A stretch of 34,286 nt of DNA. It comes from an uncultured Chloroflexota bacterium (lineage in GTDB: Bacteria; Chloroflexota; Dehalococcoidia; Lucifugimonadales; GCA-002694895). The notes under the pieces were generated by a model, which searched no databases, was not told where the DNA came from, and was given only the letters and a program-made list of their open reading frames with translations. Of this stretch, positions 15,489 through 30,592 are shown piece by piece. Numbering within the stretch: the stretch's first letter is position 1; each line of letters opens with the position of its first letter. The DNA lies in assembly GCA_950054395.1 (NCBI GenBank), contig CATLOZ010000008.1, forward strand, positions 1 through 34,286. Reading direction: 5' to 3'. A program made the position numbers and the translations under genes.

Positions 15489-16520
15489 CTAATTTACACA
15501 TTTCTTTATATCTAGATCAGAATTCAAAATATTTTCAAATTTTGAAAAATTATTAATATTTTTAAGTTTGTTTATAAAAACATTTAATTTTGCATTCTTT
15601 GTTCGGATACATTTTAATTTAGACAATATATTGTTTGTACTTTGTGGTGTGTTTCCATATGAGTTATAAAAAGCAAAATAAGCCTGATTGATCTTTCTTA
15701 TTTGATATCCTTGATCATTTAACTTGTTTTTTTGTGATAACATGAATTTTTCAGCTATATCAATTTTGTTTTTCGAAAGTAAGTTGTCAGTTATCGAACG
15801 AGTGAATCTGATTTCAGAATTAAATGAATTTATTTCTTTGGTTTTAATCTTTGTTGATTGAGTTTCGTTAATCATAATGTTATTTGCTAATTCTTCACTA
15901 ATATAACTTACCAGAGTTTCATTTAAAGCTAACATTTTATTATCTTTATAAATATTTTGACCAAGATCATACAATGAAAAATATTGATGAAGCCATTCAT
16001 GAATTGTATTATTGATAATTTTAGTATGCTCCATATCTTTTGGTATTAAAGATGGATAAAAAGCTATGCCACCTATTTTAAGCACTATTGCAGAAACATT
16101 GAATTTTTTTTCTATTTGATTTTCGATTATTTCCTTTTCTTTAATTGTTAAGTTTTGTTTTAATAGGATAGAGTAGGTTAGTTTTATTTCATTTGTTGGA
16201 GATATGATTAAAATATTAGGAGTATTATCAAGTTTGAATCTTAGCTTAGGGAAAAGGAATTTATTGAATATTAATATATTATTTTTTTTAATTTCATTTT
16301 CAATTATTTTTTTAATTTCATTTGATTCATCAGGTTGATGACTTTTATTTTGATTTAATTCATTAACAATTAAATTTGTTATATTTTTAATTTCCCATTC
16401 ATAAATATTAAAAATATTATTTGCCACATGGATATTAATGGGATTGATTTTTGTAGACTCAGGTATTTGGATCATGAAAATCATTAATATAAAGATTGTC
16501 AGGTATTTTAATTTTAACAA
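15489..16520 (-). CDS. Secreted gluzincin-like putative metallopeptidase
   Basis: N-terminal hydrophobic signal; HEWLHQYF (HExxH) with downstream NETLVSYISEEL supplying a candidate third ligand. Confidence 0.6.
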   Translation of the reverse strand: MLKLKYLTIFILMIFMIQIPESTKINPINIHVANNIFNIYEWEIKNITNLIVNELNQNKSHQPDESNEIKKIIENEIKKNNILIFNKFLFPKLRFKLDNTPNILIISPTNEIKLTYSILLKQNLTIKEKEIIENQIEKKFNVSAIVLKIGGIAFYPSLIPKDMEHTKIINNTIHEWLHQYFSLYDLGQNIYKDNKMLALNETLVSYISEELANNIMINETQSTKIKTKEINSFNSEIRFTRSITDNLLSKNKIDIAEKFMLSQKNKLNDQGYQIRKINQAYFAFYNSYGNTPQSTNNILSKLKCIRTKNAKLNVFINKLKNINNFSKFENILNSDLDIKKCVN

Positions 16521-16524
16521 GCTA

Positions 16525-17223
16525 TTATTTAAATAAGTTTAAAAATCTTTCTTCATAATGATCAAATAAACCCCATCTATCTAATTCTTTTTTCAATATT
16601 TCTGGGTCAGCTCCAAATTCTACTTGATTAAATAGTATTTCAATTCTTTGAATAGCAGCTTTTGGGACACCTCCAAATTGGGCTTGCGGCTGAAGTAATC
16701 CTCTGGAGTTAAATTCATTAACATTACTGACTAAAGATTCAGATGTAAAATCATGAATGAATTTTAGTAAAGATACATCCCATAATTCGTCTACTCCAAC
16801 AATAACTGCAGTTAATTTATCTTTTTTTGTATTTAGTTCTTTAATTATGTTATTGGAAACTTCTTCTACCGATCCGTTGAGAATGTTTAATTTCCCTGGT
16901 TCGTTTTTATATTGATAAAGTACACCTGGGCTATTCACACCAAATTTATTAGATATAAATTCTAAGTATTTATATGCCTCGCTGCTAAATCCTTTTAAAT
17001 TTAATGCATAAGTAGGAGTAATAATTTGGGGTTTTCCAGAATTTACTCTGCCAGTCCTTACAACGGTTTCTTTTTTGGATTCATCTATATCTGAATAAAT
17101 TGGTTCTGTAATTACATAGTAATTAATTATCGTAGTGCCAAATGTAGCCAAAAGTTGCAAAGGTTTTCTAACTAATCGGGTTTTTTGTACAGCTTTGATT
17201 AAATCTTTTTCTGATTCAAACAT
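16525..17223 (-). CDS. Protein of unknown function (232 aa)
   Basis: Long ORF in register with the operon, 4 bp from the neighbouring gene; no family recognised. Confidence 0.75.
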   Translation of the reverse strand: MFESEKDLIKAVQKTRLVRKPLQLLATFGTTIINYYVITEPIYSDIDESKKETVVRTGRVNSGKPQIITPTYALNLKGFSSEAYKYLEFISNKFGVNSPGVLYQYKNEPGKLNILNGSVEEVSNNIIKELNTKKDKLTAVIVGVDELWDVSLLKFIHDFTSESLVSNVNEFNSRGLLQPQAQFGGVPKAAIQRIEILFNQVEFGADPEILKKELDRWGLFDHYEERFLNLFK

Positions 17224-25451: not shown

Positions 25452-26389
25452 ATAAAAATATTACTCAGTCAAAAGGGCATTTCATGACAGCTTTGTCAAG
25501 ATTGTTCAGAAAAAAAATTGCTGTAGTTTGTATTGCGATACTAATAATTATTTATTTTAGTGGTATATTTGCATTTCTTATTGCTCCTTATGAATATACT
25601 GCACAAGATTATAGTAATATCAAAAAGCCACCTAGCATTGAACATTGGATGGGAACTGACCGTGCAGGAAGAGATGTTTTCAGTAGAGTTTTATGGGGAG
25701 TACAAAATACTGTTATTATTACATTTGTAGCAATTTTAACCGGAAGCATATTTATAGGAGTTGGCTTAGGTTTAATTTCTGGTTACAGAGGAGGGAGAGT
25801 GGACTCCTTAATTATGAGAATAGGTGAAATTTCATCATCTTTCCCTGATATTTTACTTGTGATTATTTTGGCTGCTACACTACGTCCTAGGATTTTGGGT
25901 TTTATACGTTATCTTGAAGATGCTTATAATATTAATGGTTTGGTGAAAACAGGGATAGTAGATTACCTTGTTATATCTTTAGCATTAGTAAGTTTTGGAT
26001 GGATTGGAACTGCAAGATTGATGAGAGCTCAGGTTTTAAGTATAAAACAGAATCAATATATTGATTCTGCAAAATCTATTGGTGCTTCTACTTCAAGAAT
26101 TTTATTTTTACATTTGATGCCTAATGCTATTAGCCCGTTAGTTGTTTCAATAACTATGGGCATGGGAGCTCTGGTAGGAACGGAAATAATATTAAGTTGG
26201 CTCGGCTTAGGTGTTCAACCTCCACGACCTAGCCTTGGACGTATGCTACTCGAAGGAGGAAGTATTAGTGTATTAAGAGAAGAACCATGGTTGTTGATTG
26301 GCCCAGGGATTGTAGTGTTTTTACTTATTATTTGCTGGAATTTATTGGGAGATTCTTTGAGTGATGTTTTAAATCCCAGAACTAGATAA
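25448..26389 (+). CDS. ABC transporter permease, DppC/OppC type
   Basis: HWMGTDRAGRDVFSRVLWGVQNT, RAQVLSIKQNQYIDSAKSIGAS, LSWLGLGVQPPRPSLGRML; ATGA overlap with upstream permease. Confidence 0.94.
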   Translation: MNKNITQSKGHFMTALSRLFRKKIAVVCIAILIIIYFSGIFAFLIAPYEYTAQDYSNIKKPPSIEHWMGTDRAGRDVFSRVLWGVQNTVIITFVAILTGSIFIGVGLGLISGYRGGRVDSLIMRIGEISSSFPDILLVIILAATLRPRILGFIRYLEDAYNINGLVKTGIVDYLVISLALVSFGWIGTARLMRAQVLSIKQNQYIDSAKSIGASTSRILFLHLMPNAISPLVVSITMGMGALVGTEIILSWLGLGVQPPRPSLGRMLLEGGSISVLREEPWLLIGPGIVVFLLIICWNLLGDSLSDVLNPRTR

Positions 26390-27794
26390 TATTATTTTTT
26401 TTCAATCTGAACGGGATAAAAATAAATAGTAATGATAATAGAATTACTACATCATTTGATTGAGATAAACCGCAACCACTGTTATTATTTGCAATTGAAG
26501 TTTCTTTTGTTATCTGATTTTGTGATTGTGCTTCCTTTTCTTTAGTTGAGATTGAAGAATTTTTATTTTTATTTTCCTCTGTAACTTTTTTGGAGTTTGT
26601 AATTACTTCCTTTAGAGTATAAGGTTTAATGATTGGAGATACGGGGGCTTTTGGTTTTTTGATGGATGTTGAAATTAATGAAGCTCCTATATGCTTTCTC
26701 CATTTATTTTCTAATCCTGTTTTGTCTAATTCGTAAGTATCAAGTATTGCATTATTTATAGATTTTCCTGATTTTAGAGTCTTTATAAATTTTGTAAAGT
26801 TATCATTACCTAAATTAGTAATTATATATTTAATAAATTGTTCTGATTGTCCGTAAAATAATAATATATCTTTTGGTTTACCAGGCGGACTTGAATATTT
26901 TGTTATATTTAATAATTTGTCTTCTGCTAATGCTTTTTCAAAAATAGAGTCTTTAGCTGTATAGCTGAGATGGCTAGCGTATTCTGCAAGTCCTTCATGT
27001 AGCCAAGATGGAATATTAATATATTTAGATTTAGCAGCTTTGTCTAGAAGGATATGTGTTAATTCATGAGTAGCTGTTGCTGAGGTTTGTCTGTTATCCA
27101 ATACTAACACGACTCCTTCTGAAGTAAATGCTTGCCCTTCTGTAACTAAGTTTCTCATTATAGTATCACTTTTTGGTGGGAGTGATTTTGTCATATAATC
27201 ATAATCGTTAAATAACATAATACTTAAAGGATTATTTTTTGACTCTAATCCTAATAATGGTGACATTATATCGACTGTTTCACTTATAATTTGAAGTAAT
27301 TTTTCAGATCTTTTTTTTACTACTGATCCATACACTTCCGAGTAGTAAAATGTGATAGATCCTGATTTTATATTTTCCCATTTTTGGTTAGGGTCTAAAT
27401 ATATTATTGTGTTTGCTTTTGTGGTTAAATTATATTCAGATTTAGTCAATATAGTAAAACGATATTCTATAAGTGATCCTTGGGGAATATATCTTTCTGA
27501 TGTATTAGTTCTCCATTTTAAGCTTGCCTGAAATTCATTATTATTTTCATGTTGGGTAAATTCTAAAGGATGAATAATGGATGTATTCCCCTGGCCAGAT
27601 TTAAATAATAAATTAATAGAATCTATTTGTTCGGTACTTGATCCTGTTATATTGAATGTAATATCACTCGGAAAATTTATATTAATATTTGTTTCCTTAA
27701 TTGAAACTTTAGGATTTGTATTATCATCAGCTATTAAATCCAAAGCTGGAAATAAAAATATTAATAATGATAGAAGAACAATATTTTTTTTCAT
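26382..27794 (-). CDS. Peptidase MA-like secreted gluzincin with C-terminal sorting-like tail
   Basis: N-terminal signal; TATHELTHILLDKAAKSKYINIPSWLHEGLAEYASHLS (HExxH + E); C-terminus NNNSGCGLSQSNDVVILLSLLFIFIPFRLKKNNII (SGCG, TM, basic tail). Confidence 0.82.
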   Translation of the reverse strand: MKKNIVLLSLLIFLFPALDLIADDNTNPKVSIKETNININFPSDITFNITGSSTEQIDSINLLFKSGQGNTSIIHPLEFTQHENNNEFQASLKWRTNTSERYIPQGSLIEYRFTILTKSEYNLTTKANTIIYLDPNQKWENIKSGSITFYYSEVYGSVVKKRSEKLLQIISETVDIMSPLLGLESKNNPLSIMLFNDYDYMTKSLPPKSDTIMRNLVTEGQAFTSEGVVLVLDNRQTSATATHELTHILLDKAAKSKYINIPSWLHEGLAEYASHLSYTAKDSIFEKALAEDKLLNITKYSSPPGKPKDILLFYGQSEQFIKYIITNLGNDNFTKFIKTLKSGKSINNAILDTYELDKTGLENKWRKHIGASLISTSIKKPKAPVSPIIKPYTLKEVITNSKKVTEENKNKNSSISTKEKEAQSQNQITKETSIANNNSGCGLSQSNDVVILLSLLFIFIPFRLKKNNII

Positions 27795-28399
27795 TTTTTC
27801 TCAGAATTAATATATGCATAAAATATACGTTGCATTATGGTTATTAATGCTAAGAGGATAGAAATATACATAAATAAATAAAAAATATACAAATAAAATG
27901 AACCTATTATTAATGCAAGTGAAAGAGTAACGATTCTTTCTGGTCTGGTGAAGATACCTATATCTCCTTCTATGCCTATAGATTCATATTTTGTTTTTAT
28001 ATAACTTACTAATTGATTAGATATTGCACTAAGAAAAATGATTAATAAAGAATTTGGATCATTAATAAAATAGATAAATAAGCCACCATATATTGCTATT
28101 TCAGACAATCTATCAATAACTGCATCAATAAATTTCCCGAAATTTGTTGTGTTGTTTGTATATCTAGCTAATGCTCCGTCTAGCAAATCAAAAATACTAG
28201 AAAATATTATTAGTATTCCTGAAATTATTAAATATCCCTGACTTATTAAAATCATTGTTATTATTGAAAATATAAATCCAATAATTGTTAAAGTATTTGG
28301 CGATATTTTACTTTTTACCAATAAAGGGATTAACGAGGCATACAATAATTTGTTGCAATATAACTTTAATTTATTTCTTTGTATTTGATAATTATTCAA
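27791..28399 (-). CDS. CDP-alcohol phosphatidyltransferase, phosphatidylinositol(-phosphate) synthase-like
   Basis: DLLDGALARYTNNTTNFGKFIDAVIDR CDP-OH-P motif and SYIKTKYESIGIEGDIGIFTRPERI. Confidence 0.88.
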   Translation of the reverse strand: MNNYQIQRNKLKLYCNKLLYASLIPLLVKSKISPNTLTIIGFIFSIITMILISQGYLIISGILIIFSSIFDLLDGALARYTNNTTNFGKFIDAVIDRLSEIAIYGGLFIYFINDPNSLLIIFLSAISNQLVSYIKTKYESIGIEGDIGIFTRPERIVTLSLALIIGSFYLYIFYLFMYISILLALITIMQRIFYAYINSEKK

Positions 28400-29496
28400 T
28401 GATATGAAATTTTTTTATTATATAAAGTATTTTTATAAGTATTAATTATTTTATCAGATATGTTGTCCCAATTTAGATTTTTAATGTATAAATTAGCATT
28501 AGTGATTAATTTTTGTTTTTGATTTTTGTCATCATATAATTTTTTAATTGAATGAGCTAATTGATATATATTATTGGGCTCAATAAGTAATCCATTAAAA
28601 TTGTTTGTAATTATTTCGTTGTACCCCTGGATATCTGAAGCAATGATAGCTGTATTTGAAGCCATTGCTTCTAATAATATAATTCCAAAACTTTCTTTTT
28701 TTAAAGAAGGGGCACAAAGAATATCTGATGACTGAAGGTATTCTGCTTTGCTACTTTCACTTACAAATCCAGGATTTATTATTTCTATATTGTTAATCTT
28801 GAGATTGGTTACTTTGTTACCTAGTATAATTAGCCTAATAGAAAAATCAAATGTATATTTTTTTAAGCTTTTTATAAGAGTGTTGAGGCCTTTTCTATGA
28901 TCGTTTCTGCCTATGAAAATTATGTTTAATTTATTATCTGTAATTTTATTAATTTTTTTAGCTTTAATGAAAAACTCTGTATTAATGCCATTGGGTATTA
29001 TTTCATAGATATTTTGAAAATAAGTATTTATAAAATTTTTAGCTGTTTCAGAAACTGCGATGCGTACATGTAATTTTTTGTCTAAAGGTTTGAATATATT
29101 GTTCAATCCAAATTTATATAAATTTGTACCTTGATTTGAATGAAAAGTTGCTATGTTTATAGTTTCAGAATTCAATAAAAAGCTGATAGGAAGAGAACCC
29201 GCGAATGGTTCATGTAAGTGTATTATATCTGGTTTATATTTAGAAATTAATTTTTTTACTTGGTTATTTATAAAAGGAGATAAAGTGATTTGTGATTTAG
29301 ACCCACCACTATTTATATTGAATGTTTTTCCTATTTTATAATGATTATTATGATCATAGATATTAGTTTTACTTTCTGGAGTTATAAGAATATATTTAAT
29401 TTTTTTCTTTTTTAATTGTTGAGTTAAATTAAAGACGTGATTCCATACACCTCCTGGGTTATCTATTCCATAAGGGCAAACAATAAAAATTTTCAT
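28396..29496 (-). CDS. GT4-family glycosyltransferase, PimA-like
   Basis: CPYGIDNPGGVWNHVFNLTQQL, HLHEPFAGSLPISFL, IPNGINTEFF, FIGRNDHRKGLNTLIKSL, APSLKKESFGIILLEAMASNTAIIASDIQGYNEII. Confidence 0.88.
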   Translation of the reverse strand: MKIFIVCPYGIDNPGGVWNHVFNLTQQLKKKKIKYILITPESKTNIYDHNNHYKIGKTFNINSGGSKSQITLSPFINNQVKKLISKYKPDIIHLHEPFAGSLPISFLLNSETINIATFHSNQGTNLYKFGLNNIFKPLDKKLHVRIAVSETAKNFINTYFQNIYEIIPNGINTEFFIKAKKINKITDNKLNIIFIGRNDHRKGLNTLIKSLKKYTFDFSIRLIILGNKVTNLKINNIEIINPGFVSESSKAEYLQSSDILCAPSLKKESFGIILLEAMASNTAIIASDIQGYNEIITNNFNGLLIEPNNIYQLAHSIKKLYDDKNQKQKLITNANLYIKNLNWDNISDKIINTYKNTLYNKKISYH

Positions 29497-29503
29497 TTAT
29501 ATT

Positions 29504-30592
29504 TTAAGGATTTTCTGTAGAAGACTGTATAAATTTTTCAAGTAAATTTCTTGCTTCATTGTCTGTAAACTGTGTAGGAGGTGATTTCATAAAATAACTT
29601 GAAGGGGCATCAATTGCTCCGGCCATTCCTTTATCCATAGCTATTTTACAGCACCGGACTGCATCGATAACTACACCTGCAGAATTTGGGCTATCCCACA
29701 CTTCAAGTTTTAATTCTATATTTAAAGGAACGTCTCCAAAGCTGTTCCCTTCTAATCGTATATATGCCCATTTTCTATCCGATAACCATGGGACATGATC
29801 ACTTGGGCCTATATGGATATTCTTGCTATCGATTTCATGGTCAATTTGCGAGGTTACTGATTGTGTTTTTGATATTTTTTTAGATTTTAAACGGGATCTT
29901 TCAAGCATATTTAGGAAATCTGTGTTTCCGCCAAAGTTAAGTTGATATGAATTTTCTAATTCTACGCCTCTGTCCATAAATAATCTGCTTAATACTCTAT
30001 GCACAATAGTTGCGCCTACTTGTGATTTGATGTCATCTCCTATTACAGGAACTCCTGCATCCTCAAATCGTTTCTGCCAATATCCATTTGGGCTTGATGC
30101 AATAAAGACAGGTATACAATTTATAAATCCACATTGTGCTTTAAGGATTTGTTCTACATACCATTTTGTAGCTTCTTCTGATCCGACAGGCAGATAACTA
30201 ACAACTACGTCAGTTTTAGTTTCTTTCAAAACTTTAATAATATCTACTGTTGAAGAATTGTGCTTTTCAATTATTTCTCCTAAATATTGACCAATGCCAT
30301 CATGTGTCATTCCTCTTTGTACAGGTATATTTAGTTTTGGTACGTCTTGAAATTTTATAGTATTATTTGGTTCGGAAAATATTGCTTCTGAAAGGTCTTT
30401 ACCTACTTTGTTTTTATCTACATCAAAAGCAGCAGAAAATTCGATGTCTCCTATATGATATTTTCCAAGTAGTGGATGCATTATTCCTGGGATTTTATCA
30501 TTTTCTTTTGCGTTTTTGTATTTTATTACTCCTTGCACCAGGGATGATGCACAATTTCCAACTCCAATTATAGCTACTCTAACTTTACTCAA
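29504..30592 (-). CDS. ino1: Inositol-3-phosphate synthase, short actinobacterial type
   Basis: [112 protein letters not shown]. Confidence 0.93.

Follow-up and report, generated by a model that had tools for sequence, protein, structure and literature searches.

Known C-terminal sorting signals and the tail of the window peptidase

JDVT-CTERM, Synerg-CTERM and CGP-CTERM were reportedly grouped by Haft in 2024 as tripartite C-terminal signals with an invariant cysteine, and to our knowledge, Cys-containing sorting tails have so far been tied to CPBP proteases. The MYXO-CTERM signal of the myxosortase MrtX likewise combines an invariant-Cys motif, a transmembrane segment (TM) and a basic end, and is found on many unrelated secreted proteins with N-terminal signal peptides (PMC11980579). 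In the GlyGly-CTERM/rhombosortase system, a Gly-rich motif is followed by a TM with helix-breaking residues and a basic end (PMC3237569, PMC13393428); rhomboids cleave more readily where a TM contains such residues (PMC3237569). The PGF-CTERM signal of archaeosortase A is tripartite as well, and in some archaea a phospholipid-synthase gene lies near the sorting gene, but it is archaeal, has a PGF motif without a required Cys and depends on an exosortase-like enzyme (PMC7157517).

The window, by which we mean the whole 34,286-nt stretch of DNA that was analysed, corresponds to contig C8 in a draft genome of 1.26 Mb (76% complete) of an uncultured Chloroflexota bacterium. It encodes a peptidase with a tail of similar layout, composed of the following features, for which signal peptides and TMs were called by eye or hydropathy:

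26382..27794, minus strand: coding sequence (470 codons and a stop) for a secreted peptidase of gluzincin type, Peptidase MA family 2 (open reading frame, Pfam match)
27723..27794, minus strand: hydrophobic N-terminal Sec-type signal region, residues 1-24 (MKKNIVLLSLLIFLFPALDLIADD; by eye)
27054..27068, minus strand: HELTH zinc-binding/catalytic motif, residues 243-247 (sequence; within the Pfam stretch 238-369)
26979..26999, minus strand: HEGLAEY, residues 266-272, where the third zinc ligand of the gluzincin centre probably lies (sequence; similar in orthologues)
26481..26669, minus strand: low-complexity polar linker of 63 residues (376-438) that joins the peptidase domain to the tail (unconserved in orthologues)
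26469..26480, minus strand: SGCG signature motif; its Cys441 (codon 26472-26474) is the protein's only Cys and is conserved throughout the order (sequence, orthologue tails, alignment)
26409..26450, minus strand: hydrophobic stretch of the tail, with residues 449-462 as its core (sequence)
26385..26408, minus strand: basic C-terminal end RLKKNNII, residues 463-470 (sequence)

The protein belongs to Peptidase MA family 2 both by its score against Pfam Peptidase_MA_2 (PF13485; E 7.9e-23, 81.7 bits at a gathering cut-off of 32.4 bits) and by its HExxH...E centre, represented by HELTH and HEGLAEY. This family describes the catalytic domain, i.e. the passenger, and not the tail; a solved relative of the window peptidase was not found by sequence. 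The tail has the layout SGC(441)G-LSQSND-VVILLSLLFIFIPF-RLKKNNII, and C441 is the sole Cys of the 470 residues. The sequence and the Peptidase_MA_2 match thus bear out the N-terminal signal, the gluzincin centre and the Cys/hydrophobic/basic tail reported in the first-pass annotation, which had also described the layout as resembling MYXO-CTERM, Synerg-CTERM and CGP-CTERM without clearly matching any of them.

The latter description agrees with the scans of the tails against NCBIfam and Pfam, which returned weak matches to many CTERM models. MYXO-CTERM was the nearest and the commonest, weakly matched by 9/27 and 9/18 tails in NCBIfam scans, and the window peptidase's own tail matched no MYXO-CTERM model. 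Ten tails were scored against the curated CTERM cut-offs of Pfam and NCBIfam and none reached one, with best MYXO-CTERM scores of 15.7 against 20 bits (TIGR03901) and 14.7 against 15.85 bits (TIGR03382). Among the tails with cut-offs shown, CGP-CTERM scored 13.3 against 21 bits and Synerg-CTERM 12.3 against 22.5 bits. The pooled scans give E-values only, so the sub-cut-off status is demonstrated for these ten tails and inferred for the rest. JDVT-CTERM matched few tails, with a best E of 0.004 (E-value only), and GlyGly-CTERM (TIGR03501) gave one weak match among 18 tails (E 0.32). The Chloroflexota tails share the invariant-Cys tripartite layout with JDVT-, Synerg- and CGP-CTERM, but match these models only weakly and in few cases; they differ from MYXO-CTERM in their order-wide consensus and in that no CPBP protease was found in the genus. 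From GlyGly-CTERM they are set apart by the invariant Cys, although here too a rhomboid subfamily tracks one tail type.

Conservation and distribution of the tail

A protein search found matches to the peptidase in 49 of 60 relatives, mostly draft genomes. The tail Cys is kept, a few residues before the hydrophobic segment, in 41 of the 42 orthologous C-termini that were read across the order, and three further orthologues (L088, L097, L100) carry it as well. In an alignment of 27 tails (A2) it forms the one invariant column, and the linker around it is hypervariable. Judged from these sequences, the placement of the Cys exceeds chance, given its retention next to an unconserved linker; a lack of conservation of the Cys/Gly motif among orthologues, which the first-pass annotation had named as evidence against a sorting tag, was not observed. 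Tails of congeners read SCGLSDSNEILM..., and those of other families contain GGSAC, GGGSC, SGGC and the like, usually with D/E-L/V before the TM. The single orthologue among the 42 without a tail Cys (L016, genome G020) retains the TM, and its genome also lacks the R1 rhomboid described below. A related-locus search of genome contigs reached only two near-identical loci. The Chloroflexi MAG contig NZNN01000014.1 encodes an orthologue with 87% identity, and one with 89% identity is encoded on CAJWCT010000041.1 (L032), labelled as a Flavobacteriales MAG but probably a mis-binned Chloroflexota contig.

Shorter paralogues of about 410-440 aa and 26-28% identity are present in several of the same genomes as the orthologues. 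Those inspected (L157, L158, L160-L163) end in a TM and basic residues without a tail Cys, and hence a plain anchor in this peptidase superfamily needs no Cys.

In the common pattern of the tails, a Cys that follows small residues (G, S or A) is separated from a short TM by a polar spacer about 6-14 residues long, and the TM leads into a basic end; two types were distinguished within this pattern by eye. Type A, found on the peptidase and a few other proteins, is characterised in GC-rich relatives by Gly-rich, GLxGL-like TMs. Type B, found on most other proteins, consists of [SG]GGxC, a spacer and then ...N-LLLLAPL-x-L...RR; in an alignment of this type (A6), the Cys is present in 26/26 tails and the Pro of the TM in at least 90%.

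Tail-only profile searches and the reading of C-termini indicated that about eight unrelated secreted families carry the tail. By names assigned by eye, these include NHL-repeat (L235), RCC1-repeat (L239), GLUG-repeat (L232), CSLREA beta-helix (L236), beta-propeller (L224) and TIMP/netrin-like (L221) proteins, as well as a repeat family that we dubbed 'VYSG' (L223, L225, L226, L229, L231, L233, L234). A VYSG-domain profile had matches in 56/60 relatives. In the census of the window's own genome, which consisted of profile searches, the VYSG protein (G000:C53, L284), like those of all four congeners (L285-L288), was found to end in SG-rich-C-S-x-VS...TM...KK. An unrelated protein of the same genome thus carries a similar tail, the absence of which had been named beforehand as a reason to drop the idea of a tag. 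In other lineages, VYSG proteins end either in a Cys tail or in a plain, Cys-free TM, so this passenger does not need the Cys everywhere. Overall, the motif, the TM and the basic cluster lie at the extreme C-terminus, and the unrelated exported proteins are alike in their tails only, as is general for tripartite signals.

A large secreted protein of about 800-1144 aa (L242, L244, L245, L247, L248, L253) adjoins the VYSG tail protein in conserved order. Most of these large proteins share the C-terminal end KGWNLVPVLDVTG...YWVYA..G.LVP and they are often encoded near an HrcA-like gene; they may be S-layer-type proteins.

Function of the tail and candidate sorting enzymes

The best overall explanation, to which we assign a probability of roughly 0.6, is that several unrelated exported proteins across the order use this tail, with its invariant Cys, as a tripartite C-terminal sorting signal. 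The narrower statement that it is a sorting or processing signal rather than a plain anchor appears quite likely from the sequence comparisons. The first-pass annotation had considered a plain C-terminal TM anchor to explain the tail equally well, a view that fails in the face of the plain-TM paralogues without Cys. An uncleaved anchor, with the Cys kept for S-acylation, an intermolecular disulfide or a metal and with no role in sorting, would nevertheless suffice to hold the protein, as a single TM and a basic cytoplasmic end are enough for anchoring; the L016 orthologue, which lost the Cys and kept the TM, fits this explanation, and so does the fact that no tested known sortase family occurs in every tail-bearing genome. 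Besides the paralogues, the fixation of the Cys amid a variable linker and the recurrence of the Cys/TM pattern on unrelated proteins speak against it and make it unlikely. The tail Cys is the only one in 20 of the first 30 orthologue frames, which rules out an internal disulfide there. The possible new tag class that had been proposed on one example hence gains support as a Cys-containing tail class, given the order-wide Cys, the unrelated carriers and the failure of the checked tails to reach any CTERM cut-off.

If the tail is a sorting signal, a CPBP (Rce1-like) glutamic protease, as for signals of the MYXO, JDVT, Synerg or CGP kind, would be suggested as its cutter by the shared invariant-Cys layout, by the prevalence of MYXO-CTERM among the weak matches and by the presence of CPBP proteins in 36/60 relatives. 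For the genus of the window, however, this explanation is very improbable. PF02517 had no match in any of its five genomes, and chance loss from all five is unlikely at their completeness of 65-89%, even though they are drafts; it was also absent from the tail-bearing genomes G006, G007, G012, G026, G030, G045 and G046, and the individually checked tails stayed below the MYXO-CTERM cut-offs. In the genus, a CPBP cutter could persist only as a divergent family missed by PF02517. The co-occurrence with a CPBP protease that the first-pass annotation had proposed as a check was accordingly negative there. Exosortase (PF09721) was detected in 5/60 relatives, two of them over the cut-off, and PrsW (PF13367) was uncommon. 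As a universal partner, CPBP, any rhomboid (PF01694), exosortase and PrsW were all discarded, since none is present in all tail-bearing genomes, and no common polytopic neighbour stood out as a sortase gene adjoining the non-peptidase tail genes.

The other partner proposed for that check, a rhomboid-type protease, gave a suggestive although imperfect positive for one subfamily. Rhomboids occur in 41/60 relatives and form clearly separated subfamilies (branch support 100/100 for R2). The subfamily in question, R1, has the signature GASGAIFG...DNWAHxGG, with Ser and His invariant in alignment A7, and occurs in each of the five genomes of the genus; the window's own genome has a single R1 rhomboid (G000:C15:15861-16280) with intact GxSG and His motifs. 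The first 60 genomes suggested that R1 goes together with type B tails, and this association was subsequently tested with tail and R1 profiles in 250 genomes of the order; R1 proteins scored 107 bits or more with the R1 profile, and the next group no higher than 80. R1 was present in 19/20 families with a type B tail (E at most 1e-8) and in 0/21 without (Fisher p 8e-11, families not being independent of each other), and the inclusion of the first 60 genomes in this split makes the test less than fully independent. In the 190 genomes outside the set in which the idea was formed, the association was weaker, with an odds ratio of 4.9 (p 5e-4) at E 1e-8 and of 1.9-2.2 at laxer cut-offs. For type A, R1 was found in 24/43 genomes with a peptidase tail versus 0/11 without the peptidase. 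R1 is absent from family f41, in which the closed genome G230 has five strong type B tails and no alternative sorter was identified, from G014 and G046, both with type B tails, and from many genomes that keep the type A tail Cys, e.g. G010, G024 and G045. R1 leaves type A tails in many genomes unexplained, and neither R1 nor CPBP fits in f41, f5 and f24. R1 genes lie far from tail genes where both could be placed, and two R1 proteins scored 44.9 and 51.3 bits against rhombosortase TIGR03902, below its cut-off of 84 bits.

Because of the f41 exception, the unexplained type A tails and the sub-cut-off rhombosortase scores, we offer R1 as a candidate only. It is a plausible cutter for the Pro-containing type B tails, at somewhat less than even odds, and we consider it only tentatively for the type A tail of the window peptidase in the genus. 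Under the sorting-signal explanation, the peptidase would be exported by Sec and held in the membrane by the tail TM; cleavage close to the Gly/Cys motif by an intramembrane protease, for which R1 is the candidate in the genus, would follow, a membrane lipid would be joined to the Cys or to the C-terminus so created, and the linker would display the protease at the cell surface. The full scheme, in which Gly/Cys-TM-basic tails throughout the order are cut by R1 as a dedicated rhomboid-type serine protease and not by CPBP, and the proteins are then linked by the Cys or by the newly formed C-terminus to a membrane lipid that is possibly inositol-based, is doubtful. A widespread lineage with a Cys tail but without CPBP points to another cutter, and the rhomboid subfamily is directly testable. 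If the tail is indeed a sorting signal, the surface proteins of a large uncultured group could be listed from sequence alone.

Inositol-phospholipid genes and other neighbours

Directly upstream of the peptidase gene, the window contains genes for inositol-phospholipid synthesis:

27794..28399, minus strand: CDP-alcohol phosphatidyltransferase, nearest to archaetidylinositol/phosphatidylinositol phosphate synthase models (sub-cut-off), a conserved upstream neighbour (family models, neighbourhoods)
28399..29496, minus strand: GT4 glycosyltransferase of the inositol-lipid operon, PimA-like by context (neighbourhoods, family models)
29507..30592, minus strand: inositol-3-phosphate synthase (INO1; neighbourhoods, family models)

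The inositol-phospholipid synthase gene was present at the peptidase locus in 19/20 neighbourhoods and INO1, GT4 and synthase genes together in 15/20. In Haloferax, archaeosortase-dependent lipid anchoring requires PssA and PssD, and pssA adjoins artA in some methanogens (PMC7157517). As an addition to the sorting-signal explanation, the upstream enzymes might supply an inositol phospholipid to which the peptidase is joined, as a bacterial counterpart of GPI-like or archaeosortase lipid anchors. The Haloferax precedent of a phospholipid pathway feeding the archaeosortase anchor makes the inositol lipid worth testing, but no more. INO1 is present in 59/60 relatives, with or without the peptidase, and the presence of the operon was therefore rejected as a means of predicting the tail; INO1, GT4 and synthase stay together in genomes that lack the peptidase, and other tail-bearing proteins are unlinked to the operon. 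The link between operon and peptidase is physical and not obligatory, and may reflect shared expression only. We regard attachment to an inositol lipid as improbable.

In several families, although not in the genus of the window, a protein disulfide oxidoreductase gene separates the tail peptidase gene from that of the PI synthase (L113:8669-9349, with matching gaps in L108 and L119-L123). This gene was rejected as a sortase, because the scanned copy is a thioredoxin-fold protein disulfide oxidoreductase that scored over the TIGR02187 cut-off. Two further proteins of the window (16528-17223 and 15492-16520, minus strand), one of which contains HEWLHQY, matched no Pfam or NCBIfam family over cut-off. 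They are encoded apart from the peptidase in the window, whereas their relatives in several genomes directly follow the tail peptidase, before HflK/HflC.
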